Below the pieces are notes generated by a model. It was not told the origin of the DNA. It saw only the letters and a list, made by a program, of their open reading frames with translations, and made no database searches. Of a DNA stretch of 57,252 nucleotides, positions 6,585 to 53,706 are shown in pieces. The DNA comes from Roseivirga echinicomitans (lineage in GTDB: Bacteria > Bacteroidota > Bacteroidia > Cytophagales > Cyclobacteriaceae). Positions within the stretch are counted from its first letter, which is position 1, and each line of letters begins with the position of its first letter. A program made the position numbers and the translations under genes. The stretch lies in contig NZ_LRDB01000014.1 in the NCBI RefSeq assembly GCF_001592935.1, positions 1 through 57,252 of the forward strand. The letters run 5' to 3'.

Positions 6585-6709
6585 CATCATTTTCAGTACA
6601 ACAAGAAAACGAGTTGCGAGCAGCCAACTACTGCGTTGCGTGAAAAGACCCCTACAGGGATGAATGTAAAGCTGGCGTCAACTCTTACATAAAATCGTTC
6701 GCACAATAT
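6582..6709. repeat. Repeat unit 3 (5' truncated)
   Basis: It begins at the stop codon of the GIY-YIG gene with TAGCATCATTTTCAGTA, matching the middle of the 5' block. It continues through the CAAGAAAAC and CCCTACAGGGATGA blocks to the next unit. With 6139-6186 it makes up one interrupted unit; about 27 bp of the 5' block occur on both sides of the nuclease gene. Confidence 0.8.
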
Positions 6710-6850
6710 CTAAAGCTAAGTCATGCTGTAAGCATCCTTTTCAGTAGAACAAGAAAAGCAACAGTGGGACCTGTGATACGTGAAAAGATCCCTACGGGAT
6801 GACTGCAAGATCTGGCTTATCTGGTTAAGCCTCGGCATTGATACAAACCT
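6710..6850. repeat. Repeat unit 4 (complete, 141 bp)
   Basis: Complete unit with the 5' block at 6710-6757 and the CCCTACGGGATGACTG block at 6791-6806. It fills most of the 372-base gap between the GIY-YIG gene and the AsmA-like gene. I see no open frame in that gap. Confidence 0.85.
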
Positions 6851-6897
6851 CAACGTTAAGTCATGCTGTAAGCATCCTTTTCAGAATAGAAAGAAAC
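6851..6897. repeat. Repeat unit 5, 5' block only
   Basis: The last 5' block of the array, ending in TTTTCAGAATAGAAAGAAAC. It lies directly upstream of the next gene's promoter region. Confidence 0.8.
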
Positions 6898-6956
6898 TCA
6901 TTGCCACACTCAAAAACATTCTGGAACACTTTGTGTAATTTAGAAGGGTATCTGCT

Positions 6957-8606
6957 ATGGAAAAACCATCAAAAACTTGGCTCAGAATATTCAAAATTAC
7001 GGGAATCACTGTATTGACAGTAGGTTTATTGCTCTCAATCTTCGTTACCTTCTTTCTCAAAGACATCATTAACAATCGTTTAAAAAAAGAAATTAAAGAT
7101 ACATTTGGGGATTTTTATACCCTATCGTTTGAAAATAGCTACACCTCTTTATCATGGAATGGCTTCAATATAGAATTTGAAAAAGTGGAGTTCGAAACAG
7201 ACACTGCAAACAAATTCATGATGATCCGTTACCCCGCAGTTTTCTTTAAAACCAACTCGTTCAAAGTAGTCAATATCAACATTTCAGACCTTTTGTTTCG
7301 CTCTGTAATTGACGTAAACAAAGTAGCCATTGAAAAGCCTGAACTACTCTTCTTCATTCCAGAAAAAGAGAGCTTAATAGGAAATAACAACTCTAAGAAT
7401 GAAGACTCGAAAAAGAGTGCAATCGGGAGTATCCAAGTAGCCAACTTCGACCTCACTGATGGACATGCCTCTTTCGTCTTTCATCGAAATTTAGCAGATA
7501 CGCTCTACGCTGGAAAGCAGGTAAATGTAAAAATGGAAGATCTAAAAATTGATCTCAATTCTACTGAAAACATCATTAAAACCTCCAAAGTTGAACAAGT
7601 GGCTTTTTCGCTGAACGAAATCCTACTGAGCCCAAAAGACTCAGACTATAAATACCTGATTGACGGCATCAACTTTAACTATAGAGACGAATTACTCCAG
7701 TGCTTTGGCGTAGAAATAACTGCAAAAAGAGACCCTTATAAAATGACCTTGGAGAGTCAGTTTCGAAAAACCATTTTCAATATCACTTTAGATACCCTCA
7801 CTTATCAGTCAGGAAATTTTAAAGAACTGAAAGACCTTTCTTCCATAAAAGGCAAGACCTTACATTTGATCGGATTGGACATGAATCTTGTGAGAAACAA
7901 AAGCGTTCCACTGGATGAAACGCTCTATAAAGAACTATTTCACCAGTCCTTCCTCAACCTCCCAATCCCTGTTGAAGTTGATACTCTGTATTTAAAAGAT
8001 AGCAGCATTGATTATAAAATCTATAGCGACAAAGAGCTTCAACCTGGCAACTTAATACTGACACAGCTGAATGCTACAATTGCTAACCTTTATACTGAAA
8101 AGGAAAAACGTAACAGTATTAAAGCGGACTTTGAGGGTGTTTTCATGCAAGATGCCCCTTTTAAGTTCGAATTTAACCTTCCATTAAACGACCCTAATAA
8201 TCATACCTACAAAGGCTACATTGGCCCAATGAAACTCACTAGCCTCAACCCACTAATTGCTAACCTCACAAGGGTCAAGTTGGCGGAAGGTAAAATCAAC
8301 AGCATCAACTTTGAGGGCCGAGGAAACCAGTTAACAAACTGGGGAACCATGCGCTCTGACTTTGAAGGATTAAAACTGAAAGTAACAGACAATCAAAATA
8401 ATGAACGTTGGTTGCAGTCTGGTTTAGGCAACCTAATTACTAGGAGAAACAACAGAGGAAGCAAAAATGGACTCGCAGATTCAATTGAATACGTTTTTGA
8501 GCGCCCACCCTTCAAAGACCACCTCACACTTTATGCAGGAGGTTTGATTGAAGGTTTTGCACTAAGTATTCTTCCTGAATCGGTATATAACCTCATCATG
8601 CCGTAA
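6957..8606 (+). CDS. AsmA-like membrane-anchored envelope protein (hypothetical)
   Basis: 549 aa. One N-terminal membrane helix (about residues 13-33, after a basic start MEKPSKTWLRIFK) is followed by a long, beta-rich region without further membrane segments. The composition, the early anchor and phrases such as NRLKKEIKDTFGDFYTLSFEN and LNATIANLYTEKEKRNSIKADFEG recall AsmA/DUF748-type proteins. Members of that group sit in the inner membrane, extend into the periplasm, and are linked to outer-membrane lipid transport. Assignment is by overall character rather than a diagnostic motif. It is transcribed in the same direction as the antiporter gene 89 bases downstream, but a functional link is not evident. 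Confidence 0.6.
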   Translation: MEKPSKTWLRIFKITGITVLTVGLLLSIFVTFFLKDIINNRLKKEIKDTFGDFYTLSFENSYTSLSWNGFNIEFEKVEFETDTANKFMMIRYPAVFFKTNSFKVVNINISDLLFRSVIDVNKVAIEKPELLFFIPEKESLIGNNNSKNEDSKKSAIGSIQVANFDLTDGHASFVFHRNLADTLYAGKQVNVKMEDLKIDLNSTENIIKTSKVEQVAFSLNEILLSPKDSDYKYLIDGINFNYRDELLQCFGVEITAKRDPYKMTLESQFRKTIFNITLDTLTYQSGNFKELKDLSSIKGKTLHLIGLDMNLVRNKSVPLDETLYKELFHQSFLNLPIPVEVDTLYLKDSSIDYKIYSDKELQPGNLILTQLNATIANLYTEKEKRNSIKADFEGVFMQDAPFKFEFNLPLNDPNNHTYKGYIGPMKLTSLNPLIANLTRVKLAEGKINSINFEGRGNQLTNWGTMRSDFEGLKLKVTDNQNNERWLQSGLGNLITRRNNRGSKNGLADSIEYVFERPPFKDHLTLYAGGLIEGFALSILPESVYNLIMP

Positions 8607-11961: not shown

Positions 11962-12744
11962 CTACTCATAATACACCACCACTTTAGGCTGTTCGGGTAA
12001 TGCCCTATAAATGGCCGTTAACGCTTTATCGTTGGCTTCTAAAATTACCGAAGGCTGATATTCATAAGGTTGAAAATTGACCATAGCAGTTAAAAAAGAC
12101 TTTGTCCTTTCCATTCTTCTCCCCGACCAAAAACTACGGTTGGCTTTTTTATCTACCGAAGTGAGGTCCTCATCTTGCGTAATAAGAAAGTGGATTCCGT
12201 TGTCGGTAATCAACTTGATGAAAACAGGTTGGTGCACCAAAGTGTCGGGTGTCGTAACCGAAGTCAGTAATTCTTCTGGGTTTTTGGGCGCTATCTTTTC
12301 AATAATAGGCTCCTTTATAATACTGGCTTCAGACAGCGTTACAGACAGAGGTTTTGAAAATGTTTGTATGTACATGCCCTGAGGTAATTTTCTGAGCATT
12401 GGATCAAGCTTCATTGAGGTCATTTTCACATTGTAAATCACTACGCCATTGATAAATAACCCTAAGGTGCTGTCTGGCACATTGATGATTAAATGGATAG
12501 AATCCTTCTTTGAAAGGCTTAATAAAGCATCTCTATAAGCGATCAAACGTTGAATCGAATCTAATTTAGCGTCATTATAAACCGCTATTGTTTCTTGATT
12601 TTTCTTCCATTCTGCCAATTTGTTTACTGGAGCCATGGCATACTTTACCAGCCCAAAAATTATTATGATCAGTATCATCGCTAAAGCGATATATAAGAAA
12701 ATTGTCTTCCCGCTTTTGCTTAGGTTTTTTTCTTGCGCTTCCAT
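11962..12744 (-). CDS. Membrane-anchored periplasmic protein in the L,D-transpeptidase cluster
   Basis: 260 aa, not recognised. A short cytoplasmic N-terminus is followed by one membrane helix (about residues 14-35, with six consecutive branched aliphatic residues). A short coiled segment (KKNQETIAVYNDAKLDSIQRL) and a periplasmic domain with regularly spaced beta strands (LIINVPDSTLGLFINGVVIY) follow. The gene starts 5 bases after the stop of the upstream L,D-transpeptidase gene on the same strand, so the two are almost certainly co-transcribed. This context points to a role in peptidoglycan cross-linking or lipoprotein anchoring, perhaps as a scaffold for the transpeptidases; that is inference. 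It shares no obvious catalytic motif with them. Confidence 0.75.
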   Translation of the reverse strand: MEAQEKNLSKSGKTIFLYIALAMILIIIIFGLVKYAMAPVNKLAEWKKNQETIAVYNDAKLDSIQRLIAYRDALLSLSKKDSIHLIINVPDSTLGLFINGVVIYNVKMTSMKLDPMLRKLPQGMYIQTFSKPLSVTLSEASIIKEPIIEKIAPKNPEELLTSVTTPDTLVHQPVFIKLITDNGIHFLITQDEDLTSVDKKANRSFWSGRRMERTKSFLTAMVNFQPYEYQPSVILEANDKALTAIYRALPEQPKVVVYYE

Positions 12745-12748
12745 TCAA

Positions 12749-13405
12749 TTAGAAAATAAAAACCTTAGAGCCAATGGGCAGCGACTTATACACCAACTCT
12801 AGGTTGGCGTCATCCAAACGAATGCAACCATGCGTTACAGGTAATCCCAAAAACCGCTGATAAAGTGTGCCATGAATCAAATATCCATCGCCAATGCTCA
12901 ACGAATAGTCGCCCAAAACCCCGTATTCAAAACGGGACGAATGATTTGGAGAAGGCACAGGTAAACCATCTTCTACGAAAGCCCAATCAGGTTTCTTCCA
13001 CACCGGGTCTTTGGTCTTATTCAATATTCTAAATTCGCCTTTTGGCGTCTTAAACATCCATTGCTTTTTACTGTCGTTGCCTTTTAGAAGGATATAACTC
13101 CCAGTTGAGCATATATCGCTTTTGATCAGATTCGTTCCCTTGTACAAGTAGAATTCATTGACCGTACTGTTCACTACCAAATAGTTATTTTTAGGAATAT
13201 TGGCCGAAAGTTTCTTATCCAAAACCGCCAATTGGTTCTGCATGTCGGTCAGTAAAGCGGCTTCGGTTTCCTTGTCTACTTTCACCACATCTTCCTGAGC
13301 AGTTAAGCTGATCATGATGGTTTGAATTTTCACCAAAACCAGCAGTAACAACACCATGGTTGTCGCCAACACTACCCATTTCCTTATGTTCGTTTTCTTC
13401 TCCAT
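12749..13405 (-). CDS. L,D-transpeptidase (YkuD domain), membrane-anchored
   Basis: 218 aa. One N-terminal membrane helix (about residues 10-28) anchors a short linker and a C-terminal YkuD domain. The catalytic signature VTHGCIRLDD contains His192, Gly193 and Cys194, with an upstream conserved His in GYLIHGTLY. Enzymes of this family form 3-3 cross-links or attach proteins to the meso-diaminopimelate residue of peptidoglycan in the periplasm. It starts with an ATG overlapping the stop of the upstream transpeptidase by one base (TAATG), so the two are translationally coupled. The adjacent lipoprotein with a C-terminal Lys makes protein anchoring a plausible role. Confidence 0.9.
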   Translation of the reverse strand: MEKKTNIRKWVVLATTMVLLLLVLVKIQTIMISLTAQEDVVKVDKETEAALLTDMQNQLAVLDKKLSANIPKNNYLVVNSTVNEFYLYKGTNLIKSDICSTGSYILLKGNDSKKQWMFKTPKGEFRILNKTKDPVWKKPDWAFVEDGLPVPSPNHSSRFEYGVLGDYSLSIGDGYLIHGTLYQRFLGLPVTHGCIRLDDANLELVYKSLPIGSKVFIF

Positions 13406-14499
13406 TATTTAGTTGGGAGCGGTTTAAGCGACCCCACGATAATTACTTGTGTATTTTCTGAAGCCAAGCCAAAAAGCTTGTCCATATCATTGTTATTTAA
13501 AGCGACACAGCCATCGGTCCAGTCCAAACCTTTCCCGCCATCACCGTGTATTTCTATTAAGTTGCCAATGGTGGCATTCTTTGGAATAATGCCTTTGGCC
13601 TTATTCTCCTTAAAGCGTTTCTGATCATCAGCATTCGGGTAATTCAGCAGTAAAGCTTTATAATATTTGGTCTGCCCATTCCCCTTTTTCTTCACTACCT
13701 TATACACTCCTTCAGGAGTGGTTTTATCCCCAGAGAGCATCTTATCCCCCATCCAGTTGGCACCAAGTTCCATATTGAAAGTATGGGTCAGTTTACCTTT
13801 GGCATATACATAGCAAAGCCTCTCCATCTTATCGATGACAAAAACGGTTTCATTCGCTTTGCGCGATTTTTCAATTCCTGCAGACACCCACTTTTTCCAT
13901 TGTGGATAGTCCTTAAAGAATTCGGTCATGGTAGCCTCGGCTTGCCCAATCAGTTGAGCCATGTCCTTTTCCAACTTGCTTAAGTTCTCTTTCAGAAGTG
14001 CAGCATTTCCACTTTCAAATGCAACAGACACTTCATGATAAAGCATACGCGATTGTGCAAGTCGTTTTACCGAGCTTTCACTTAGCGGAATATTTTTATA
14101 CTTTAGGTCGAAACGCTCAAACTGATCATCGATTAAATCGAGTCGTTTGCTGTAGTTCGACCATATTTTCTTGCTCATATTTTGAGCTGTACTCTTGGCT
14201 AATATTGCCGTTTCTGATGCTTTAGAAGCCAGCTGTTTTGTGATCAAAAAGTCCTTCATAAAGAAGAAACGATCGTTTTCTTTGGCCCAAGCCACCATGG
14301 CCGAGTCGTATAAAATAGTTGCCTTTTTATACAAATCTGGTGCGTATTCTGACGCCTGACTTTTTTCCGCTTCCGAAAGCTTTTCTCGTGCCTCGGTTAA
14401 TTCAGCCAGCGGAGGCTGAGGGAAAATGAAGGAAGGAAATAGTAATGCCATGAGAATTAGCACAGTGAGCAGAGCAATCGCTAGCCATTTGATTTTCAT
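13405..14499 (-). CDS. L,D-transpeptidase with helical periplasmic region
   Basis: 364 aa. An N-terminal membrane helix (residues 5-24) is followed by a long helical, probably coiled-coil region (about 32-205). The C-terminal YkuD domain (about 215-355) has conserved HGDGGKGLDWTDGCVAL and catalytic Cys331. The WTDGC form replaces the classical HGC, as seen in a large subgroup of these enzymes. Helical content similar to that of the neighbouring lipoprotein suggests they could interact. It is the first gene of a three-gene set (with 12749-13405 and 11962-12744) and lies downstream of the lipoprotein, separated by a terminator-like hairpin. It could ligate or cleave protein-peptidoglycan or 3-3 bonds; which of these cannot be told from sequence. 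Confidence 0.88.
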   Translation of the reverse strand: MKIKWLAIALLTVLILMALLFPSFIFPQPPLAELTEAREKLSEAEKSQASEYAPDLYKKATILYDSAMVAWAKENDRFFFMKDFLITKQLASKASETAILAKSTAQNMSKKIWSNYSKRLDLIDDQFERFDLKYKNIPLSESSVKRLAQSRMLYHEVSVAFESGNAALLKENLSKLEKDMAQLIGQAEATMTEFFKDYPQWKKWVSAGIEKSRKANETVFVIDKMERLCYVYAKGKLTHTFNMELGANWMGDKMLSGDKTTPEGVYKVVKKKGNGQTKYYKALLLNYPNADDQKRFKENKAKGIIPKNATIGNLIEIHGDGGKGLDWTDGCVALNNNDMDKLFGLASENTQVIIVGSLKPLPTK

Positions 14500-14515
14500 A
14501 TCTTTTCCAAAAATG

Positions 14516-14556
14516 AAAATCCCCTTTAGGCTTTGAAACCTTCAGGGGATTTTGCC
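14516..14556 (-). terminator. Hairpin terminator/attenuator after the lipoprotein gene
   Basis: AAAATCCCC (14516-14524) pairs with GGGGATTTT (14545-14553), with a partly paired 20-base loop. On the minus strand the stem is followed by a T-rich run. It lies between the lipoprotein stop and the transpeptidase start. It would let the lipoprotein be made in excess of the enzymes, as in loci for abundant structural lipoproteins. Confidence 0.75.
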
Positions 14557-14574
14557 TTTATCGTTCTATCTAAA

Positions 14575-15180
14575 TTACTTTCTTCTTGGAGCAGCTTTGT
14601 ATTTGCTGATCACTTCAGTTAATTCAGTATTGATTGTGCTTGCTTTTTCTTTAGCAACTTTCACTTTCGCTAACGAAGGCTTCAACTCACCATTTTGAAA
14701 CATTGTGTTTGATTCAGTAATAGAAGCTTCAACAACATCTAATTCAGTTTTGATCGCCTCTAATGCAGTCGTTCCTTCTTTGCCTTTAGGAGCCTCAGTA
14801 ATTAACTGTCTTCCTTGAGCAACCAAAGTCTGAACTTCTTCCATAGAAGCCAAGATTTCAGCTTTCACTGCTTCTTTAGTGGCTTCAGTGCTAGCAGAAA
14901 CTTCGTTAGCCATTGCAGTCACGTTGTTTAATTTCTCAACAGTCTTAGTGTACTTTTTGAAGAACTTAGATTTTTGCTCTTCCAAGCTTGCCATAGCTAC
15001 CGCCATAGAGTCATTCAAAGCATTGTATTGCTCGGTAACATACACTTCGGCACCAGCAACTTTTGCGGTTTCGATAGCAGCTGTAGCAGCATCAATTTCA
15101 GTTTGTGGTACATCTGCACAAGAAGTCATGCCTACCATACCAATGATCAATGCACCGATTAATTTGTTTGTAATTTTCAT
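14575..15180 (-). CDS. Helical lipoprotein ending in Arg-Arg-Lys (candidate Braun-lipoprotein analogue)
   Basis: 201 aa. The signal peptide ends in a lipobox MTSC with Cys21 as the lipidation site. The mature 181 residues are Ala/Glu/Lys/Thr-rich, free of Pro except near the ends and one loop (EAPKGKEG), and strongly helical/coiled-coil. The chain ends KYKAAPRRK, so the last residue is a Lys preceded by Arg. In E. coli Lpp, the C-terminal Lys (ending YRK) is joined to peptidoglycan by L,D-transpeptidases, and two such enzymes are encoded directly downstream here. The combination suggests a lipoprotein that is covalently attached to the cell wall; the attachment is inference. No family name is certain (some resemblance to DUF4398-type helical lipoproteins). 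Its mRNA has a stable leader hairpin and its own terminator, consistent with high expression. Confidence 0.85.
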   Translation of the reverse strand: MKITNKLIGALIIGMVGMTSCADVPQTEIDAATAAIETAKVAGAEVYVTEQYNALNDSMAVAMASLEEQKSKFFKKYTKTVEKLNNVTAMANEVSASTEATKEAVKAEILASMEEVQTLVAQGRQLITEAPKGKEGTTALEAIKTELDVVEASITESNTMFQNGELKPSLAKVKVAKEKASTINTELTEVISKYKAAPRRK

Positions 15181-15213
15181 AATTGTTTATTCTCTCTTTT
15201 TAATTGTTGATTG

Positions 15214-15227
15214 ATGCCCGAAGGCAT
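15214..15227 (-). promoter_or_regulatory. UUCG-capped hairpin in the lipoprotein mRNA leader
   Basis: On the minus strand ATGCC-TTCG-GGCAT forms a 5-bp stem closed by the extra-stable cUUCGg tetraloop, 34 bases before the lipoprotein ATG. Such 5' hairpins commonly protect mRNAs from decay; that role is inferred. Confidence 0.6.
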
Positions 15228-26312: not shown

Positions 26313-29165
26313 TCATTCCCCCATCCCTCCAATAAATGTATCTACGAAGTCGACCATTTTGTCAACGATGCGCTCTATGGTAGTTCGTTTTTGAGCGAGC
26401 TTTGGCTTGGCTCCTTCAATCATGTTGAGAACGTCTGTACCTAATGGCTTGCGTTCTGTGAATAGATATTGATCTATCGAGGCCTGTAAAAGTTCAGGGT
26501 TTAGTTGTTCTTCATCTGCCAACTGACTAAGTGCTTTGCTACGCTCTTCTGTCCAGAAAGACTCGAAGACCTCATCAATCTGATCCATGTCTTCGACATT
26601 AGGCAGACTCTCATGAATGAACTTTTCTATCAACTCCTTTTTGCTCCTCAATTGAGCATCCCCGGCAATAGCATCGATAATCTCTTTTTTACGCTTCTCA
26701 TGATCCTCTGCTTTTGCTCCTTTCAATTGAGCCAATAGCTTAAGAATATAGGCTACATTAATTTCATCTCTATGAATGAGCTCTAATTCAAAGTCTACAT
26801 CATCGAGAATAGAAACCTTCTCTTTCTGACGGTCATTGCGGACTTTATCGTGAATGTCTAAGTATTTGCTTTTGTAGTCTTCAAACTCCTGCGAATCTAT
26901 GCCTATTTCCTCCTCATCGAAATCTGCAAAACCACTGAGTACATTTTTCAAACGCAAGAGTTCTCTAAATGCCTTCACAAACTCAAACTCCTCCTCCTCA
27001 GAAGGCAATGCATCGACACTGCCTACTGTTGGAGCAATCTCTTTCATCTTCTCTAAAGCAGCTTTGAACTTGTCGATGTAGTTCTCATAAGGCTCCATCA
27101 AAATCACCTCTCGGGCATCTTTGTTAGAGAATAGGGCTATGGCATCGTCTGTGGCTTTTTTAAGGTTTCTGAAGCAGACAATATTACCCTGCGACTTTGT
27201 TTCATCAAGCGTTCTGTTGGTTCGTGAAAAGGCTTGAATAAGGCCGTGATATTTGAGGTTCTTATCTACAAAAATGGTGTTCAGTTTTTTGCTATCGAAA
27301 CCTGTTAAGAACATATTCACCACGAGCAAAATATCCACTTCACCTTTCTTTACTCGACTTGAAATGTCATTGTAATAGTCATAGAATGACTTACTATCTC
27401 TGGTCGAATACTTGACACCAAACATCTTGTTATAGTCATCTATGAATTCATCGAGCTTTTCACGGGAATGTTTATCGAGCCCATAAAGCACTCTTGGGTC
27501 TTCCGCTACGGAAACCTCCTCACCTATTTGCCCATCAGCATTGGCATCTTCTTCATTGGGATTGTAACTGAAAATCGTAGCGATTTTAAGATTATGCTTA
27601 CCCTCAGCTTTGGCTGCCTTGAACAGCTCGTAGTAATGAATGAGACTCTTTACACCACTTACACAGAACATAGCTGTAAATCGCTTGCTATGTGTCTTTC
27701 GGTCGTGATTGAGCGCCACATAGTCAACAATCTTTCTGAGACGTTCAGGGCTCTCCAAAAGCTCCTTGGTGTCGATGTCCTCTACCTCAATGTCAATATC
27801 GTTTCGGCTGCCTTCTTTCTCTCTGTATCGGCCTACATACTCGATTGAAAACTTGAGTACGTTTTCATCTCTAATGGCATCGGTGATTACATATTTGTGA
27901 AGACACTCTTCAAAGAGGTCTTTGGTGGTTCTCTTGCCTTTCTCATTTTTTGCTGCGTTTTCAGCAAATATCGGTGTGCCTGTGAAACCGAACATCTGGG
28001 CTTCCTGAAACCAATCCTTAATTTTCTCATGTGTATCGCCAAACTGAGAACGGTGACATTCATCAAAAATGAAGACAATCTTTTTGTCTTTCTGATGCTC
28101 CATTCTGGTGGTGTACCGCTTTTTAGAAATGGCAGTATTGAGCTTTTGAATGGTGGTGACAATCAAAGGCGTATCATCAGAAAACTGTTTTACTAAGATC
28201 TCTGTATTATCTGTTGAGCTGACACTGTCTTTTTGAAAGCTATTGTATTCTTTGGCCGTTTGGAAATCAAGGTCTTTTCTATCGACTACAAACACTACTT
28301 TATGCACCTTGGGTAATTTCATTAAAACCTGCGCTGCTTTGAAAGAGGTAAGCGTTTTGCCTGAGCCTGTGGTGTGCCAGATATAACCGTTTTTGGTAGA
28401 GTTCTTAACACGATCAATGATGGCCTCCACTGCATAAAACTGGTATGGCCTGAGGATCATCAGCGCCTTCATGGTTTCATTGATGACTACATACTTGCAA
28501 ATCATCTTGCTCATGTGGCAAGGCTCTAGAAACTCTTGAGTAAAGGCCTCTAGGTTGGTGATAATGTTATTCTCTTTATCCGACCAATAAAAGGTGTTTT
28601 TAAAGCTCTCACGTTTTTGATTAGAGAAGTACTTAGTGTTTACGCCATTACTGATCACATAAAACTGCACGTACTGAAACAAGCCTAAAGAAGCTCCAAA
28701 CGAATGCTTTTGGTAACGCTTTACTTGGTTGAATGCCTCTTTCAGTTCTATCCCCCTCCGCTTGAGTTCAATTTGAGCAATGGGAATACCATTCATAAGC
28801 AGAGTAACATCGTAGCGGTTTTTGTACTTGCCTTCCATAGCGACCTGATTGGTAACTTGGAAGATATTCTGGCACCAATGCTCTTGCTGAATAAACTCTA
28901 GGTAAATACTTTCTCCGTTCTCTTTGGTGAGCTGGAATTTATCTCGAAGGGTTTTGGCTTTATCGAAAACTGAACCTTTGCTCAATTGATTAATGACCTG
29001 AGCAAACTCCTTTTGAGTTAAGGAAACACCATTGTGCTTCTCTAATTGAGTTTTAAGGTTAGCCAAAAGATCACCCTCGTCCTTAATGGTGACGAATTGA
29101 TACTTGAGCCCTTGTAATTGCTCAATCAGTTTATTCTCTAATGCCTGCTCTGGTTGTATGGTCAT
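26313..29165 (-). CDS. hsdR: Type I restriction enzyme, R subunit
   Basis: 950 aa. The N-terminal PD-(D/E)xK nuclease is seen in NRYDVTLLMNGIPIAQIELK (Asp and Glu-x-Lys). The SF2 motor follows: Walker A HTTGSGKT, motif II DECHRSQ, motif III GFTGTP, motif VI region QAFSRTNR. A helical C-terminal part that binds the methylase completes it. In complex with HsdM and HsdS it translocates unmodified DNA and cleaves at a distance. The ATG at 29165 overlaps the stop of the previous gene (ATGA). It belongs to one minus-strand operon with hsdM and hsdS, but is separated from hsdS by three accessory genes. No disruption is seen, so it should be active. Confidence 0.96.
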   Translation of the reverse strand: MTIQPEQALENKLIEQLQGLKYQFVTIKDEGDLLANLKTQLEKHNGVSLTQKEFAQVINQLSKGSVFDKAKTLRDKFQLTKENGESIYLEFIQQEHWCQNIFQVTNQVAMEGKYKNRYDVTLLMNGIPIAQIELKRRGIELKEAFNQVKRYQKHSFGASLGLFQYVQFYVISNGVNTKYFSNQKRESFKNTFYWSDKENNIITNLEAFTQEFLEPCHMSKMICKYVVINETMKALMILRPYQFYAVEAIIDRVKNSTKNGYIWHTTGSGKTLTSFKAAQVLMKLPKVHKVVFVVDRKDLDFQTAKEYNSFQKDSVSSTDNTEILVKQFSDDTPLIVTTIQKLNTAISKKRYTTRMEHQKDKKIVFIFDECHRSQFGDTHEKIKDWFQEAQMFGFTGTPIFAENAAKNEKGKRTTKDLFEECLHKYVITDAIRDENVLKFSIEYVGRYREKEGSRNDIDIEVEDIDTKELLESPERLRKIVDYVALNHDRKTHSKRFTAMFCVSGVKSLIHYYELFKAAKAEGKHNLKIATIFSYNPNEEDANADGQIGEEVSVAEDPRVLYGLDKHSREKLDEFIDDYNKMFGVKYSTRDSKSFYDYYNDISSRVKKGEVDILLVVNMFLTGFDSKKLNTIFVDKNLKYHGLIQAFSRTNRTLDETKSQGNIVCFRNLKKATDDAIALFSNKDAREVILMEPYENYIDKFKAALEKMKEIAPTVGSVDALPSEEEEFEFVKAFRELLRLKNVLSGFADFDEEEIGIDSQEFEDYKSKYLDIHDKVRNDRQKEKVSILDDVDFELELIHRDEINVAYILKLLAQLKGAKAEDHEKRKKEIIDAIAGDAQLRSKKELIEKFIHESLPNVEDMDQIDEVFESFWTEERSKALSQLADEEQLNPELLQASIDQYLFTERKPLGTDVLNMIEGAKPKLAQKRTTIERIVDKMVDFVDTFIGGMGE

Positions 29166-29848
29166 ACATTAAAATTTTTAAACTCCATACTCAATATCTT
29201 TTCAAACTCTTCTTTGCTGTTTCTTCCTTCATAAATCTTGGCTCTTCTATACCAACTTCGAAATGTGGGATGCCCTACCCTTTTTACATTTCCTTCAATG
29301 GTCCATCCATTTTCTTTACCATAAGAATCATGAGCAACCTTACTAAGGAAAATCACAAGTACTGGATTCAGAATTTGAACTAGATATTTATAAAATTCAT
29401 AAGCTAGCTTATGATCTTCTGAAGTTAAATCATATTTAATAGTTTCTCTTTCTTCTTCAGCTGGCCTTTGAAAATAGTTGTAATAACTAACTTCTTTATA
29501 GGCCTTTATCTTTGTTTCATAGCCAAATACATTTTGGATGCTCTGTGCAATATTAGTATGAATCGAGTGCCCCCATTTTTCCATTACTCCTTCAACATTT
29601 GCTCTGGTATTGGTCCAATTAAAAATGTGGCCGTCATTCAATGACTTTAGATATTCTACATCATTCCATTCAGAATAACCAATCTGATGATTATACTTTG
29701 CAGGTATATAATGCGACTCTGCAATCAACAAGGCTTTATGAGGACTTTCATTCCACTCTGCTCCAATAAAGGGAAGTAACTGTGGATGCCTTTTAAGGTG
29801 ATCAAATTGATTAATTAGTAGTTCATCGTATTGTGTGGTATAGTTCAT
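29162..29848 (-). CDS. Uracil-DNA-glycosylase-superfamily-like protein in the restriction operon
   Basis: 228 aa. The early strand ALLIAESHYIP corresponds to motif I of UDG-like folds, and the late VGHPTFRSW to motif II (HPS-type loop). YYNYFQRP and LNPVLVIFLSKVAHDSY lie between, in the expected order. I assign the superfamily with moderate confidence; whether it removes bases is unknown, since motif I lacks the usual Gln/Asp. Its stop overlaps the hsdR start (ATGA), so the two are translationally coupled. A base-recognising or excising protein inside a restriction operon could act on modified phage DNA; that is inference. Confidence 0.65.
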   Translation of the reverse strand: MNYTTQYDELLINQFDHLKRHPQLLPFIGAEWNESPHKALLIAESHYIPAKYNHQIGYSEWNDVEYLKSLNDGHIFNWTNTRANVEGVMEKWGHSIHTNIAQSIQNVFGYETKIKAYKEVSYYNYFQRPAEEERETIKYDLTSEDHKLAYEFYKYLVQILNPVLVIFLSKVAHDSYGKENGWTIEGNVKRVGHPTFRSWYRRAKIYEGRNSKEEFEKILSMEFKNFNV

Positions 29849-29854
29849 TACTGC

Positions 29855-31090
29855 TTATTTGAATTTCCTAAATGCTTGAGCAGTCTGATAAATACCATAC
29901 CCGATAAAAACTCGCCCTAGCAGGTCAAAGAGATAGAACCCGTTATAGAGCTCAAATTTTTCACAGAACTCTTGTCCTAGGTAATCAAACCTATGTATTG
30001 GCAATAAAAAGTATGCGTAGTTAGCTATTTCACTTCGCACAATATTTGGGTCAAAATTCCAAGCAAATTCGTATTTCGAGGTACCAAGAAGACTTAAGTA
30101 GAAAAAAAGCGCCCCAACTAGTAAAGTAAACAGCACTCCTTGGACATAGGCCGCACCATAGTAATTTGACATCCAGTTTAAACGGAGAATACCGATATTA
30201 AAAATACTTTTCCATTTCTCGATTAAAAACCTAAACCAAGGCTCTTTCTTCCCTTTGATATCCTTTTTTCGTAACCGGTATAAATTGATTCTTTGTTCTA
30301 CAAGAAGTGTTTTCTTCTCAAGTACCTTAAATGGTATTGATTCAACAGTATTGCTTGTTTTTTCATATTGCTCTTTAAAGAGCCTGAGTGTTTCTCTCTT
30401 ATTCTTTATCGGAATATCTCCATTCTTGCTGACTGCGTCTTCGAACTCATCATCATTTAACTTTCTCTTTAGAGATTTGAAGTCACTAACCCGAAGGTCA
30501 AACGCTCCTATCTGACCGGGAATTATTGCTAAAGACAAATCAAGCCCCTTTCTAAAAACAGTGCCTCTAAAAAGTATTAAGTGATTAATTAGAGAATAAG
30601 TGAATAGAACATTCTTCTCGAAAATAGCAGCTGAAAAAACTGCTACTTTTAAAAAGTCAGTCTTGTAGAAGATTGTTTCTTGAAAAAAATGAGTTCTCCA
30701 GAAATCTACTAACCCCTCAAATTTTGTATTTCTGAAGTTGGTCTTCTTGTGGAATCGACAACCCCTGAATCTTACTTTACCTGTGAACCTCGAGTTTTGC
30801 AAAGAAACATCTTCAAAAAAGTCACAACCTTCAAAGGTTACATTTCTGTTTGAAGTTGTGACCTTCACGTAAGATTTAAAATGGCAGTTTTTAAAGACAA
30901 CCTCATTGAGGTCAGCAGGTGTTGGGTAACGTCTATTGCAAAATGAATTTGGTCGGAGGCTTTGCCCTTCTTCAAATGAGAACTCATAGTTTTCAAAAAA
31001 ATTAATAGCCCGGTACTTTTTAAAGTCCACAGCATCACAAAGGGCGAATACATCCTCATGGTCAACAATTAGTAATTTCTCTTTTTCCAT
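29855..31090 (-). CDS. Pentapeptide-repeat-like membrane protein, accessory gene of the restriction operon
   Basis: 411 aa from the ATG at 31090. Residues about 45-215 form degenerate pentapeptide repeats with Phe/Leu every fifth residue (VVFKNCHFKS, VTFEGCDFFE, VRFRGCRFHK, TNFRNTKFEG, VDFWRTHFFQ), expected to fold as a right-handed beta-helix. A charged helical linker follows, then at least two C-terminal membrane segments (GVLFTLLVGALFFYLSLL and a helix near the end). Similar repeat-plus-membrane proteins occur among phage-defence genes, where the membrane part may act as an effector; the exact role is unknown. The start lies immediately after a duplicated hsdS 3' end, showing that it once followed hsdS directly. 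Confidence 0.75.
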   Translation of the reverse strand: MEKEKLLIVDHEDVFALCDAVDFKKYRAINFFENYEFSFEEGQSLRPNSFCNRRYPTPADLNEVVFKNCHFKSYVKVTTSNRNVTFEGCDFFEDVSLQNSRFTGKVRFRGCRFHKKTNFRNTKFEGLVDFWRTHFFQETIFYKTDFLKVAVFSAAIFEKNVLFTYSLINHLILFRGTVFRKGLDLSLAIIPGQIGAFDLRVSDFKSLKRKLNDDEFEDAVSKNGDIPIKNKRETLRLFKEQYEKTSNTVESIPFKVLEKKTLLVEQRINLYRLRKKDIKGKKEPWFRFLIEKWKSIFNIGILRLNWMSNYYGAAYVQGVLFTLLVGALFFYLSLLGTSKYEFAWNFDPNIVRSEIANYAYFLLPIHRFDYLGQEFCEKFELYNGFYLFDLLGRVFIGYGIYQTAQAFRKFK

Positions 31091-31095
31091 ATCAC

Positions 31096-31147
31096 ACAAA
31101 CATCTGCTGCAACAGCCCTTTTTTAAAGTCCTTCATTTGATCGATTT
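31096..31147. repeat. Duplicated hsdS 3' end (copy A)
   Basis: 52 bp matching 31828-31879 at 49 positions. On the minus strand it still reads IDQMKDFKKGLLQQMFV-stop, a copy of the HsdS C-terminus. It flanks the 31160-31795 gene together with the real hsdS end. Confidence 0.9.
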
Positions 31148-31159
31148 AAATTTGAGCCG

Positions 31160-31795
31160 TTAGCCTATCATTTTATGAATACTAAGAATAAAATTCTGTT
31201 TAGACTCCAATACTTTTTCAAGCAGTTCCTTGGAGTTAACATTTGTTGTACCGTAAACAAACAGATCTCCGATAGCTTTCAAAATTTTCTGTGGTGAAGC
31301 CTTTTTTTCACTTTTCTCTGTTCTTTGAACATTTAAGCTTCCATCATTGATATGATCTCGAAGTTCATTGAGAATTTTTAAGAAAGCTCTCGTTTCTGCT
31401 TTACCTACCAACTTTTCTTCAAAAAAGAATGAAGCATATTCTATACTTGACTTAAATTCATTGAGGTGAATTTGGAAGTTAGTATCTAGTTGTATTAAGT
31501 CAGGTTTCTTTTCACCGAGAGAGACGTGCACTAAATTGATAAGCACATTTGATTTTTTTATAAGTCCTTCAGATAATTGAAGTCTAATTTTCTTTAATTC
31601 TACTGCCTTCTCATCCCAAACTTTAAAAGCAAACTGACTAAGCGTAAACCCTAAACCAATCAAAGCCAAGACCAAAGGATACCTAAACTCTTTGTCTTCA
31701 GGGATTTGGTTAGCATACAGCAGATAAGCCAAAAATAGAGAAAACACAAAAATCAGCAGCGCAATTAAAACACGGTATTTAACCCAATTACTCAT
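31160..31795 (-). CDS. Two-helix membrane protein inserted behind hsdS
   Basis: 211 aa, not recognised. Two N-terminal membrane helices (about residues 8-28 and 38-58) with a short loop are followed by a long cytoplasmic helical region rich in Lys and Glu, including QRTEKSEKKASP. The layout (two helices plus a soluble helical domain) is common among membrane effectors in defence islands, but no motif proves this. It is bracketed by two 52-bp direct repeats of the hsdS 3' end, so it forms a separable 0.7-kb cassette within the restriction operon. Confidence 0.7.
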   Translation of the reverse strand: MSNWVKYRVLIALLIFVFSLFLAYLLYANQIPEDKEFRYPLVLALIGLGFTLSQFAFKVWDEKAVELKKIRLQLSEGLIKKSNVLINLVHVSLGEKKPDLIQLDTNFQIHLNEFKSSIEYASFFFEEKLVGKAETRAFLKILNELRDHINDGSLNVQRTEKSEKKASPQKILKAIGDLFVYGTTNVNSKELLEKVLESKQNFILSIHKMIG

Positions 31796-31823
31796 TATTC
31801 AATAAATATTACTTATCATTCAT

Positions 31824-33122
31824 TTATACAAACATCTGCTGCAATAGCCCTTTTTTAAAGCCCTTCATTTGATTGATTTCCTTATCAAATCCTTGAAGTT
31901 TTGTATCTATTGAAGTCAGAAAATCGACTATTTTAACTTGCTCCTCCTTAATTGGCAATGATAGTTCCATTTTGACAAGGTGAGTTTTAGATATGCCTAA
32001 TACGGACACTCCAGTTGCTAATCTCATAATTTGCCTCCTTATATCTACCGTTTGAAATAGGTAGCCTTTAAACCCCAAAGTGAAGTTCTTATCAATGTCC
32101 CTTCCTATGTAGGTATGTAAGCCCGCAACAACAAACTCATTATTGAGGTCAATTAATTCGATCGCTTTACCAATATCCTTGTAGTCTTCACTGGCATCTG
32201 CGATTATCAAATCACCTTCTTGGCAAAATTGCTCAGCCTTTATCTTTGACGTATCCACTTCTTCATTAATGAATGGAACCTCCTCATCATTTAACTTAAA
32301 GTTAGACCTGAACTTGGTATGTATATCGCCATAATGAATGTTCTTAATCGATCCCGATTCGTAGTTAAGCAGACTTCTAGAGAAGGAATTTGTACCAAAA
32401 AACTCAATCACCCCCCCCAACCTCTTCTCCTCCCAACCTGGAAAGCTTGTACCATCTGGGCGTTTAAAGCGGAGCTCTGGGTTGGTTTGGCCTGCTTTTG
32501 GAAAGAGCTTTTGCATTACCCCTTTTTTGTAGGTTTCGAGCTTTTCTTTTTTGGCGGTGAGCAAACGGATCTTCTCATCTACCGCACTTAAAAAATCAGC
32601 AATTTTATCCTGTTCTTCAATTTTAGGATAATTGAGTTTAGTATTAAGAATGAACTTCTGGGAAATATTTGTTTGTGATGTAGCCAACCCACTATACTTA
32701 CTCATCAATTGTTTTTGAGCCTTCCTTGTACCTAATAAAATTGCAAAGAACTTGTGATTATTACCTCCAACTCGAACTCTAATTATCTTATCAGATAACA
32801 TTAATTTATTTCTAACTAGGCCCACATAGGCAACAACACCAACCCGATTGGTTGGACCTGCTCTTGTAATTAGAATATCATTTTCAACTACTTCGATCTC
32901 CTTTCTCGCCTCTAATTTCTCTGGTAACTTCTTATTTTCTTTTTCATCAAAACCTCCCCAAACCACCGAGGTAGTTTTTAATACTCCCCATTCATTATTC
33001 GTAGCACTTCTTTCTTCACATTGGGGACTCCAACCTGATTCTATAACACTTACCTCAGAATCTAACCTAGCTTCCTTCCAAGGCTCACTATACCCTTTAA
33101 ACCTTAATTTAGGAACAATCAT
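31824..33122 (-). CDS. hsdS: Type I restriction-modification specificity subunit
   Basis: 432 aa. Two target-recognition domains (about residues 1-150 and 225-380) are separated by conserved helical spacers. The central one reads KIRLLTAKKEKLETYKKGVMQKLF and the C-terminal one DKEINQMKGFKKGLLQQMFV. HsdS selects the bipartite methylation/cleavage site. Its ATG follows the hsdM stop by 2 bases. A run of eight G in the coding strand (32411-32418) lies at the start of the second half (EKRLGGVIEFF). Slippage there would remove the second recognition domain and alter specificity, as in the gonococcal NgoAV system. Confidence 0.95.
   Translation of the reverse strand: MIVPKLRFKGYSEPWKEARLDSEVSVIESGWSPQCEERSATNNEWGVLKTTSVVWGGFDEKENKKLPEKLEARKEIEVVENDILITRAGPTNRVGVVAYVGLVRNKLMLSDKIIRVRVGGNNHKFFAILLGTRKAQKQLMSKYSGLATSQTNISQKFILNTKLNYPKIEEQDKIADFLSAVDEKIRLLTAKKEKLETYKKGVMQKLFPKAGQTNPELRFKRPDGTSFPGWEEKRLGGVIEFFGTNSFSRSLLNYESGSIKNIHYGDIHTKFRSNFKLNDEEVPFINEEVDTSKIKAEQFCQEGDLIIADASEDYKDIGKAIELIDLNNEFVVAGLHTYIGRDIDKNFTLGFKGYLFQTVDIRRQIMRLATGVSVLGISKTHLVKMELSLPIKEEQVKIVDFLTSIDTKLQGFDKEINQMKGFKKGLLQQMFV
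31828..31879. repeat. hsdS 3' end (copy B, in the gene)
   Basis: The genuine end of hsdS; partner of the 52-bp repeat at 31096-31147. Same orientation, 680 bp between the copies. Confidence 0.9.
32411..32418 (-). repeat. G8 homopolymer in hsdS (possible phase-variation tract)
   Basis: Eight consecutive G in the coding strand, codons TTG GGG GGG GTG. As sequenced the gene is in frame. Tracts of this length in genes are prone to slipped-strand changes. Confidence 0.8.
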
Positions 33123-33124
33123 AC

Positions 33125-34729
33125 TTACACTTTCACAGGTGAATCAATCCCTAATTCTGAACAGTAGTCGGCTATCTTTTGGTCGATAGCAGTCATTTGT
33201 CCTTCTAAATCAGCCAAGTCTTTACTTACTGTTTGTAAGTCAATAGTCTCCTCTTCTTCAAAGGTGTCTACATAGCGAGGGATATTGAGGTTATAGTCGT
33301 TTTCTTTGATCTCTTCAAGGCTGGCTACATAACTGTACTTTTCTTCTAGCTCACCACTTGGCACTCCTTCCACTACATAATTGCGGTAAGTCTCAATAAT
33401 CTTATCAAGGTCTTTTAAGCGAAGGTTATTCTGGTTTTTAGACTTTTCGAAATGTTGGCTGGCATCAATAAATAATACCTGATCGGGATGTTCCTTACAC
33501 TTTTTAAACACCAAAATACTGGTGGGGATTGAAGTACCATAGAAGATATTGGCAGGCAAACCGATCACAGCATCGAGCCAATTTCTATCTTCAATTAAAT
33601 ACTTTCTAATATGGCCTTCGGCTGCGCCTCTAAACAAAACCCCATGAGGCAATACGCAAGCCATAGTGCCATTCTCATGTAAATGGTAAAGCATGTGCTG
33701 CACAAAGGCAAAGTCGGCCTTAGAGCTTGGCGCCAACTTACCGTATTGGCTAAAACGGTCGTCTGTCATATGCAAGCTGCTGGCACTCCAATTAGCAGAG
33801 AATGGAGGATTGGCCACCACGGCCTCAAACTGATGTTCTAAATGCTGCGGATGTTCTAAAGTATCTTCTTGCCGAATATCGAATTTAGCAAAGTGCACCC
33901 CATGCAAAATCATGTTCATGCGAGCTAAATTATAGGTGGTACGGTTCAACTCTTGACCGTAGAAATGGCCTACTTCCTCCACCTCTTTGGCTACACGCAA
34001 TAAGAGCGAACCACTACCACAGGTAGGATCATACACAGATTTAAGTCGGGTTTTACCCACAGTGACCAATCGGGCCAAAATGGTAGAAACCTCTTGCGGA
34101 GTATAGAACTCCCCTGCTTTCTTCCCTGCGCCAGAAGCAAACTGTCCGATGAGGTATTCATAGGCATCGCCTAGCACATCGGAATTAGCGTCTTCTAGCT
34201 TAAAATCAATTTTGTCTAAGTGGCCAAGTACTTTTACAATCAGGTCGTTTTTGGCTTTTTCTGTTCTACCGAGTTTGGTAGATGTCAAGTCGAGGTCTTC
34301 AAAGAGCTTATTGAAATCATCTTCCGATTCCGTGCCCATGGTACTCTGCTCAATGTAGTTGAGAATATTGGTGAGGTCTTCTAGGATAAAGCTGCTATCG
34401 CCTTCTTCTGCCCTGCTGGCTCCTTTATTGGCAATGGCACTAAATAGCTGTGCTGGTTTAAGGAAGTAACCGAGCTCTTCTAAAGCCTCAGCTTGCAAAA
34501 AGCTGAGCATTTCATTTCCATCGGGGGTGCCTTCTATCAGTTCTTCATATTGTAAACCATCTTCTTGCAATTGCTCATTGGCGAAGAGGTACATTTTCTC
34601 AGAAAGGTATTTATAGAAAATAAAGCCAAGGATATAGTCACGGAATTCATCCGCATCCATTTTGCCTCTTAGCTCATTGGCAATATTCCAGAGTTGTTGT
34701 TGTAGTTGTTTTTTTTGGTCGTCAGACAT
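33125..34729 (-). CDS. hsdM: Type I restriction-modification DNA methyltransferase
   Basis: 534 aa. An N-terminal helical HsdM_N domain (about 5-150) is followed by the N6-adenine methyltransferase core. The SAM-binding motif YDPTCGSGSLLL is near residue 220 and the catalytic NPPF (ANPPFSANW) near 307. A C-terminal helical tail contacts HsdS. It methylates adenine in both half-sites. The ATG at 34729 begins MSDDQKKQLQQQLWNIANEL, typical of the family. It is followed directly by hsdS. Confidence 0.97.
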   Translation of the reverse strand: MSDDQKKQLQQQLWNIANELRGKMDADEFRDYILGFIFYKYLSEKMYLFANEQLQEDGLQYEELIEGTPDGNEMLSFLQAEALEELGYFLKPAQLFSAIANKGASRAEEGDSSFILEDLTNILNYIEQSTMGTESEDDFNKLFEDLDLTSTKLGRTEKAKNDLIVKVLGHLDKIDFKLEDANSDVLGDAYEYLIGQFASGAGKKAGEFYTPQEVSTILARLVTVGKTRLKSVYDPTCGSGSLLLRVAKEVEEVGHFYGQELNRTTYNLARMNMILHGVHFAKFDIRQEDTLEHPQHLEHQFEAVVANPPFSANWSASSLHMTDDRFSQYGKLAPSSKADFAFVQHMLYHLHENGTMACVLPHGVLFRGAAEGHIRKYLIEDRNWLDAVIGLPANIFYGTSIPTSILVFKKCKEHPDQVLFIDASQHFEKSKNQNNLRLKDLDKIIETYRNYVVEGVPSGELEEKYSYVASLEEIKENDYNLNIPRYVDTFEEEETIDLQTVSKDLADLEGQMTAIDQKIADYCSELGIDSPVKV

Positions 34730-52681: not shown

Positions 52682-53071
52682 TTATAGATCCAATCGATAA
52701 ATGAAAACATTGTTTAACTCTGCTAAGAAATCGCAAGCATTTACAATCGTTCTCAATTGCTTATTTGCCATTTGTTCCAAAGTGTGAATTGGCGCCTCCA
52801 AAAGTAAATTATTACTTCCGTCATAAATCATGATCATTTTGATCAGCTCAGGCTTGACGTTACCCTGATCATCAACAACGAAATCTAATTCGTAATCCAT
52901 CAAGTTCAACTCATGTTTTACTTCAGAGATTAATTGAAAGGCTTCTTCTTTCGTTAATCTTTCATTGTCAATATTTTGTGCCATTGACATTGTACTTATG
53001 CCTAAAAAAAGGCAAATCATTAAAGGGATTCTTCTCCCTAAATTGTCGATTGTGTTGTTTATTGAGTTCAT
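52682..53071 (-). CDS. Small secreted protein, copy A
   Basis: 129 aa, with a signal peptide (RIPLMICLFLGISTMSMAQ). The mature part is a compact alpha/beta domain (LTKEEAFQLISEVKHELNL, YELDFVVDDQGNVKPELIKM). It is not a recognised family. Closely related to 53314-53706, including the leader sequence, so the pair arose by tandem duplication. Exported to periplasm or outside; function unknown. Confidence 0.8.
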   Translation of the reverse strand: MNSINNTIDNLGRRIPLMICLFLGISTMSMAQNIDNERLTKEEAFQLISEVKHELNLMDYELDFVVDDQGNVKPELIKMIMIYDGSNNLLLEAPIHTLEQMANKQLRTIVNACDFLAELNNVFIYRLDL

Positions 53072-53313: not shown

Positions 53314-53706
53314 CTATAAATCTAATCTATAATAGAAGGTGTTATATGATTCGATTAAGAAATCACTTGAGTTTACTAACCTTCTTAACTCCTTGTTGCT
53401 CATTTGTTCTACGGTGTGGATTGGAGCTTCTAAAAGCAACTCGTTATCCTTGTCGTAAATCTTGATGACCTTAATCGGAGAAGGCTTAATGTTACCTTCG
53501 TCATCAATTACGAAATCCAATTCGCAATCATTTTTCAGATTCAAATCGTGTTTTACTTCTGAAATCAATTCAATAGCTTCTGCTCTTGTTAATTTTTCAT
53601 CAGCAATTTCTGATGCCATTGAGATTGTACTTATGCCTATCAAAAGGCAAATCATTAAAGGAATTCTTCTCCTTAAATTGTCGATTGTGTTGTTTATTGA
53701 GTTCAT
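53314..53706 (-). CDS. Small secreted protein, copy B
   Basis: 130 aa from the ATG at 53706, the position equivalent to copy A (an upstream start at 53745 would run through the leader hairpin). A signal peptide (RIPLMICLLIGISTISMA) and the same domain (LTRAEAIELISEVKHDLNL, CELDFVIDDEGNIKPSPIKV, APIHTVEQMSNKELRRLV). No known family. Function unknown. Confidence 0.8.
   Translation of the reverse strand: MNSINNTIDNLRRRIPLMICLLIGISTISMASEIADEKLTRAEAIELISEVKHDLNLKNDCELDFVIDDEGNIKPSPIKVIKIYDKDNELLLEAPIHTVEQMSNKELRRLVNSSDFLIESYNTFYYRLDL

Follow-up and report, generated by a model that had tools for sequence, protein, structure and literature searches.

The stretch analysed here (the window) comprises 57,252 nucleotides of Roseivirga echinicomitans and carries on its minus strand, from 15180 down to 11962, a lipoprotein gene, two genes for proteins of the L,D-transpeptidase (LDT) type, called LDT1 and LDT2 below, and a gene for a protein with one predicted transmembrane helix. 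The lipoprotein gene (14575..15180) encodes a predicted outer-membrane lipoprotein of 201 residues with the lipobox MTSC, ending in Cys21 (codon 15118..15120), and with the C-terminus KYKAAPRRK, of which Lys201 (codon 14578..14580) is the last residue. LDT1 (13405..14499, 364 residues) is composed of an N-terminal hydrophobic segment, a lipoprotein-like helical domain (residues 26-194, 13918..14424) and a YkuD catalytic domain (13438..13848) with the motif WTDGC-V-A and Cys331. LDT2 (12749..13405, 218 residues) is a YkuD protein with an N-terminal hydrophobic segment, the motif HGC-I-R and Cys194, and the fourth gene (11962..12744, 260 residues) encodes the transmembrane helix followed by a predicted periplasmic domain. 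LDT1 and LDT2 overlap by 1 base and 4 bases separate LDT2 from the fourth gene, while the 75 bases between the lipoprotein gene and LDT1 contain a terminator-like hairpin (14516..14553). A UUCG hairpin lies in the leader of the lipoprotein gene (15214..15227). An earlier note, made by a model from the letters of the window, had described the lipoprotein reading frame with its lipobox and C-terminus, two LDT genes behind it and a membrane protein after the enzymes; all of these are found as described, both enzymes matching PF03734 and the WTDGC enzyme preceding the HGC enzyme. From this arrangement the note had proposed a tether between outer membrane and cell wall in the manner of the Braun lipoprotein Lpp.

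The lipoprotein was compared across 22 homologous loci, together with 19 LDT1, 20 LDT2 and 18 fourth-protein sequences. AlphaFold2 predicts four helices for the window protein (26-70 with two short breaks, 78-129, 134-162 and 166-196; mean predicted local distance difference test score, pLDDT, 87), in line with the helical mature chain that had been claimed. With an even number of helices, the N- and C-termini would come to lie side by side in the bundle, and by this count the C-terminus and K134 would sit at the lipid-anchor, that is the membrane, end. The lipobox Cys, the predicted lipidation site, is kept in 22/22 sequences, and the conserved positions belong to the helices and to one loop, not to the tail. 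This loop, AP(K/R/T)GK(E/D)G (residues 130-136, 14773..14793), holds K134, an internal residue and the only invariant lysine of the lipoprotein (22/22). K134 is retained even in the seven homologues that have just 5-8 lysines, although the same is true of K102, so that retention is not unique to K134. With Pfam, the window lipoprotein reaches 10.5 bits for PF14346 (DUF4398), below the gathering cut-off of 27.9, and 7 of the 22 homologues match this family at E 0.01 or better; AAA_13 and other weak matches were set aside as coiled-coil noise. No match to PF04728 (LPP) was found in the source genome at E 0.1, and the 22 lipoproteins, which match 10 Pfam families in all, do not match this one. 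PF13645 gave no match in 7 genomes, but since its cut-off was passed in 0/14 control genomes as well, this says little.

One new feature of this locus is the relation between the lipoprotein and the enzyme encoded next to it. In a profile comparison (hhalign) of the 22 lipoproteins with the 19 LDT1 sequences, lipoprotein residues 21-194 align with LDT1 residues 26-194 at a probability of 98.7 and E 4e-16; a smaller set had given 88 percent over the first 80 residues, partly in the signal peptide. Moreover, LDT1 of the window itself passes the DUF4398 cut-off (29.7 versus 27.9 bits). By profile comparison, the N-terminal domain of LDT1 is therefore a full-length paralogue of the lipoprotein. 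A conserved counterpart of the AP(K/R/T)GK(E/D)G loop was not seen in the LDT1 domain by eye, nor was a conserved Lys at the K134 position, albeit LDT1 of one locus (L022) happens to have GKE there.

How do the two enzymes differ? According to the excerpts from which this and the other articles are cited here, LDTs acting as transpeptidases carry Arg two residues past the catalytic Cys, most DpaA-like proteins have Ala or Asn at this position and LD-carboxypeptidases are also without the Arg (PMC8263019); DpaA-like proteins have been reported in Bacteroidetes (PMC8263019). In the sequences compared here the residue at Cys+2 is Arg in 20/20 LDT2 and Ala in 19/19 LDT1. Family models agree with this division, at scores far below their cut-offs. 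Among the NCBIfam models, the DpaA model NF040599 is matched by 19/19 LDT1 (30.3 bits for the window protein versus a cut-off of 365; best E among the 19, 3.5e-12), the next best model, PRK10190, by 6, and NF040599 is matched by no LDT2 of 20 at E 0.01. LDT2, which in the window scores 67.3 bits for PF03734, matches the models PRK10260, PRK10190 and LdtE in 20/20 cases, far below cut-off; PRK10260 and PRK10190 we take to be LdtB and LdtA. Profile searches of the PDB returned 8ikr (a YkuD protein) and then the LD-carboxypeptidase Pgp2, 4xzz (presumably Csd6) and 7o21 for LDT1, and 4lzh (an L,D-transpeptidase), 9tyw, 4xxt and Bacillus subtilis YkuD for LDT2.

A tree of 66 rows was built with 16/19 LDT1 and 17/20 LDT2 (near-duplicates from L019, L020 and L119 omitted) and with 27 of 58 paralogue open reading frames, namely 14 WTxGC, 5 SIGC-type and 8 YcbB-type proteins (among those left out, L082 and L083 duplicate the cassette, a usable domain was missing from L086 and L089, and L053 is a repeat of L079). 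The LDT1 sequences cluster as a clade (99/98) within a group (98/98) that also holds E. coli DpaA and single-domain WTxGC proteins, whereas E. coli DpaA itself joins the 5 Bacteroidota SIGC-type proteins at 100/99, apart from the LDT1 clade. LDT2 is a separate clade (98/99) on a long branch outside the E. coli LdtA/B/C/E group; it should be noted that the tool warns of long branches meeting and that the deep joins are unsure. LDT1 resembles DpaA (YafK) in the Ala at Cys+2 and in the family model, and Pgp2 in that the latter is among its PDB matches, but it belongs to a WTxGC clade of its own, SIGC/TIGC proteins that group with E. coli DpaA being found in other Bacteroidota. Filing LDT1 as DpaA was rejected on this ground. 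Because of the Ala at Cys+2 and the grouping with DpaA, LDT1 is by these markers hydrolase-type, though not a DpaA orthologue, and LDT2 is by its Arg ligase-type, that is transpeptidase-type. The suggestion of a ligase and possibly a cleaving enzyme beside the lipoprotein is strengthened by these results. Apart from the cassette LDTs, no PF03734 protein was found in the source genome; a count of two is also seen in G007, G013, G300, G465 and G549, and one of 3 to 5 in the remaining carriers.

The fourth protein is probably a relative of the LDTs that has lost catalytic activity. Its C-terminus (IYRALPEQPKVVVYY) is similar to that of LDT2 (VYKSLPIGSKVFIF), and hhalign aligns nearly its whole periplasmic part with LDT2 at 73 percent and E 3e-5; with 6 sequences on each side the value was 4 percent. 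AlphaFold2 predicts an alpha/beta domain (mean pLDDT 83), consistent with a degenerate YkuD fold. By eye, a Cys opposite the catalytic Cys of LDT2 is absent in 18/18 fourth-protein sequences.

How widespread is this gene set? The source genome falls into the same genus as Roseivirga seohaensis and R. ehrenbergii; the lipoproteins of these two species share 96 percent identity with that of the window, and a scan of genome contigs gave matches in the two nearest species only. A single-sequence query retrieved the lipoprotein from 6/59 relatives and full-length LDT1 from the same 6, with matches to the LDT1 catalytic domain alone in four further genomes. Profile searches extended the range to 15/390 genomes of the source family, in 6 genera, and, at E < 1e-60, to 8/233 genomes of the phylum, all 8 of which also carry LDT2. 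Conversely, LDT2 was found at E 1e-15 or better in 9/395 phylum genomes, seven of them outside the class, and in all seven the lipoprotein is present in the same locus; weak partial lipoprotein-like matches (10 of 18 matched phylum genomes in one search, 6 of 11 in another) stand outside these counts. Within the source genus the lipoprotein was not found in 13 of 19 genomes searched, and the set is thus gained or lost often.

The complete four-gene set occurs in the same order and on the same strand in 18 of the 22 lipoprotein loci, and these 18 span five genera of the source family and three families outside the class; the lipoprotein and the two LDT genes described earlier thus form a conserved set. 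Counted among the 18 is L111, in which the LDT1 frame is broken (6702-7922) and just an 83-residue piece is recognised; this could be a sequencing error. The fourth gene is matched weakly in L121 (E 6e-4) and L122 (E 8e-4). Of the incomplete loci, L112 is cut short close to the end of its contig, in L123 a fourth gene was not recognised, and the lipoprotein stands by itself in L114 and L115. Judged by these comparisons, the four-gene set is old.

In G478 and G424, which belong to a single genus, the lipoprotein is retained while LDT1 and LDT2 are gone and the fourth gene is missing at the locus. Each has a single PF03734 match elsewhere, of 28.6 bits, whereas the listed cassette LDTs score at least 58 bits. 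A small gene that lies 3' of the cassette in L032, L109, L113 and L116 directly adjoins the lone lipoprotein in both genomes; the three partner genes have therefore apparently been excised and the lipoprotein kept. In these orphans 5 of 8 otherwise conserved columns at 126-140 are changed in at least one sequence, versus 2 of 17 elsewhere, a post hoc comparison within one genus, and K134 is unchanged in both although the surrounding loop has changed. As sequences, the orphans point to a role of the lipoprotein that is independent of the cassette LDTs.

Several other genes recur in the neighbourhood. Of the 9 family loci outside the genus, 7 have a divergent sigma-factor gene next to the lipoprotein (Sigma70 regions 2 and 4 in Pfam, L032:8333-8905 tested), with matching genes seen across L109, L110-L112 and L114-L116 and a distance of about 2 kb in L110. 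A protein of 132-136 residues without known family is encoded near the lipoprotein in 6 of these 9 loci, and neither gene was found within 6 kb at the six source-genus loci. A protein of 154-171 residues with an N-terminal hydrophobic stretch (L032:4544-5008, L114:6886-7374; no Pfam match for the two sequences checked) recurs near the lipoprotein at 7 of these 9 loci: four times it follows the cassette, twice the lone lipoprotein, and in L110 it lies upstream. Outside the class, a DNA-binding regulator (Trans_reg_C, checked in L118) is near the cassette in 6 of 7 loci (L117-L121 and L123). Elsewhere in the window, 52682-53071 and 53314-53706 encode tandem small proteins of 129 and 130 residues that are similar at both ends by eye, and 26313-34729 resembles a type I restriction-modification locus, again judged by eye.

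The tether originally proposed was built on the terminal lysine of the lipoprotein, and here the comparison goes against it. A C-terminal Lys is found in 7 of the 22 lipoproteins, six from the Roseivirga genus and that of G300; four others end in Lys-Ser or Lys-Gly and two in Lys-Arg-Ser or Lys-Arg-Gly, the final three residues are free of Lys in nine and the final 16 in three (in L120, L122 and L123 the last Lys lies 62, 16 and 21 residues ahead of the final residue). With tails this variable, which is what the earlier note had named as counter-evidence, a conserved C-terminal Lys tether was dropped as the mechanism of the family, and of the proposed co-occurrence of Lys and LDT genes the conserved gene set stands, whereas the Lys does not; two lipoprotein-bearing genomes, moreover, are without LDT1 and LDT2. 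Nor is a terminal Lys a special feature: it is shared by 12 of 45 open reading frames in the window (greedy, at least 120 residues, LDT1 and the lipoprotein included) and by 18 of 63 at six related loci. In E. coli more than 20 percent of periplasmic proteins and lipoproteins do so, according to the excerpted Dickeya paper (PMC12274547), which also reports that Lys-Lys ends get attached, that a single C-terminal Lys of the OutB box suffices and that Lpp minus its last Lys is attached about 50-fold less. Because the Roseivirga and G300 lipoproteins have four distinct tails (AAPRRK, TASNRK, TARK and SAKK) which all end in [RK]K (7/7), a clade-specific C-terminal attachment in this group is possible as far as the tails indicate.

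The two hairpins had been read as signs of higher expression of the lipoprotein than of the enzymes. The terminator-like stem at 14516-14553 exists (-20.2 kcal/mol, z -2.3, 8/200 shuffles equally good) and a stem with a CCCC/GGGG core is seen by eye at the same spot in 7/7 aligned genomes; the consensus fold keeps 9 pairs, 3 of them with two-sided change, but 10 of 63 cells are broken, the covariation term is unfavourable (+0.51) and the hairpin is absent from the output of an automatic terminator scan. The UUCG leader hairpin is present too, but folds weakly (z -1.0, 35/200 shuffles equally good) and by eye occurs in 3 of the 7 genomes, the window and its two closest relatives; as a sign of high expression it was discarded.

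Taken together, these features may describe a dedicated peptidoglycan-editing module in which the lipoprotein is a non-covalent scaffold or regulator of two L,D-bond enzymes, a reading to which we tentatively give close to an even chance. In the outer membrane the lipoprotein would serve LDT1 and LDT2, LDT2 forming L,D-bonds as a transpeptidase-type enzyme and LDT1 breaking them in the manner of DpaA or an LD-carboxypeptidase. Since the N-terminal domain of LDT1 is a diverged lipoprotein copy, we infer that the two associate: with the lipoprotein held in the outer membrane and LDT1 in the inner, the paralogous helical domains could meet across the periplasm, whereby the catalytic domains would be placed. 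The fourth protein would be a dead, membrane-bound LDT relative that regulates the LDT1/LDT2 pair. A partial precedent comes from Rhodobacter sphaeroides, whose outer-membrane lipoprotein DalA (RSP_1200) co-precipitates with the predicted LDTs RSP_1199 and RSP_0243, was found not to be covalently bound to peptidoglycan and has been proposed as scaffold for peptidoglycan transpeptidases (PMC10470522). By the description in the excerpts, one predicted LDT gene lies downstream of dalA (RSP_1201) and another beside it by locus number (RSP_1199), so by analogy an outer-membrane lipoprotein beside an LDT gene can be a non-covalent LDT partner; DalA differs in being an alphaproteobacterial divisome lipoprotein, and an LDT with a lipoprotein-like domain is not described in the excerpted text. 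Several points weigh against such a scaffold. The product of RSP_1201, the gene just downstream of dalA, did not co-precipitate (PMC10470522). The activity assignments have their basis in a single residue, in models that stay below cut-off and in the tree, the model of the LD-carboxypeptidase ElsL is also matched, more weakly, by 20/20 LDT2, and the YkuD protein 8ikr outranks Pgp2 as best PDB profile match of LDT1. The YkuD ancestry of the fourth gene comes down to one moderate profile match (73 percent; 7.5 percent against LDT1, C-terminal only), in a protein that has neither a Pfam YkuD nor a PDB YkuD sequence match. The orphan lipoproteins come from one genus and so probably reflect a single event. 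Finally, ligase-type and DpaA-type enzymes next to a helical lipoprotein are also how a covalent tether would be expected to look.

Such a tether, the main rival reading, in which LDT2 would link a lysine of the lipoprotein to meso-diaminopimelic acid and LDT1 would free it, is possible but on balance unlikely. The lysine could be K201 in the Roseivirga clade or an internal one, K134 or other, throughout the family. Besides the fitting enzyme pair, it is favoured by the cassette LDTs being the sole PF03734 proteins of a source genome in which LPP finds no match, by the [RK]K ends that persist on altered tails, and by an invariant K134 that has no conserved equivalent in the LDT1 copy. Moreover, Coxiella LimB (PMC12274547, PMC12729407) and Legionella Lpg1810, which is attached via a Lys of its C-terminal tail (PMC11841132), are covalent tethers by a non-C-terminal Lys, as K134 would be, likened here by description. 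Yet the terminal Lys is confined to seven of the 22 homologues, three homologues have Lys-free ends of 16 residues, K102 is kept in the lysine-poor sequences just as K134 is, K134 stays where LDT1 and LDT2 are gone, and the helix count would set both C-terminus and K134 at the lipid-anchor end. Quite improbable is the stronger form of the idea, a phylum-old counterpart of Lpp in which LDT2 joins K134 to meso-diaminopimelic acid and LDT1, docking via the Lys-less copy of its own substrate, releases it. It could also be imagined that the operon serves ordinary 3-3 cross-linking and stem trimming and that the lipoprotein is an envelope protein merely sharing operon and ancestral domain. 3-3 cross-links are the most common product of YkuD enzymes (PMC12729407), the conserved lipoprotein positions are in helical body and loop instead of the tail, and the terminator-like hairpin parts the lipoprotein from the enzymes; the four-gene order in 18/22 loci, some outside the class, and the full-length paralogy argue for a functional link, however, and make this explanation improbable.

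Compared with the E. coli system of Lpp, LdtA/B/C and DpaA, which is limited in its Lpp component to a subset of Gammaproteobacteria (PMC8263019), the Roseivirga locus shares a helical lipoprotein with an N-terminal lipid Cys as well as ligase-type and DpaA-group YkuD enzymes, and the end RRK of the window lipoprotein recalls YRK of Lpp. Lpp, however, is one helix of 58 residues, whereas the window lipoprotein is a chain of about 180 residues predicted as four helices and without PF04728 match; unlike in Lpp, the terminal Lys is not conserved, the enzymes are encoded in the same operon and LDT1 holds a copy of the lipoprotein. Of the linkage between outer membrane and wall independent of Lpp that the earlier note envisaged, the absence of an LPP match and the conserved enzyme pair remain in support, and the C-terminal Lys tether falls away as the mechanism of the family. 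A search of the literature by title, with most subscription journals outside its coverage, returned no covalent or LDT-coupled link between outer membrane and wall in Bacteroidota, nor this gene set. New here, as far as sequence comparison goes, are the paralogy of the LDT1 N-terminal domain with the lipoprotein, the probable dead LDT as fourth protein and the invariant internal K134. The module is a concrete candidate that can be deleted, with ligase-type and hydrolase-type enzymes in one operon that are the sole PF03734 enzymes found in the genome, and an enzyme carrying a copy of the neighbouring lipoprotein would be an unusual way of aiming wall editing.

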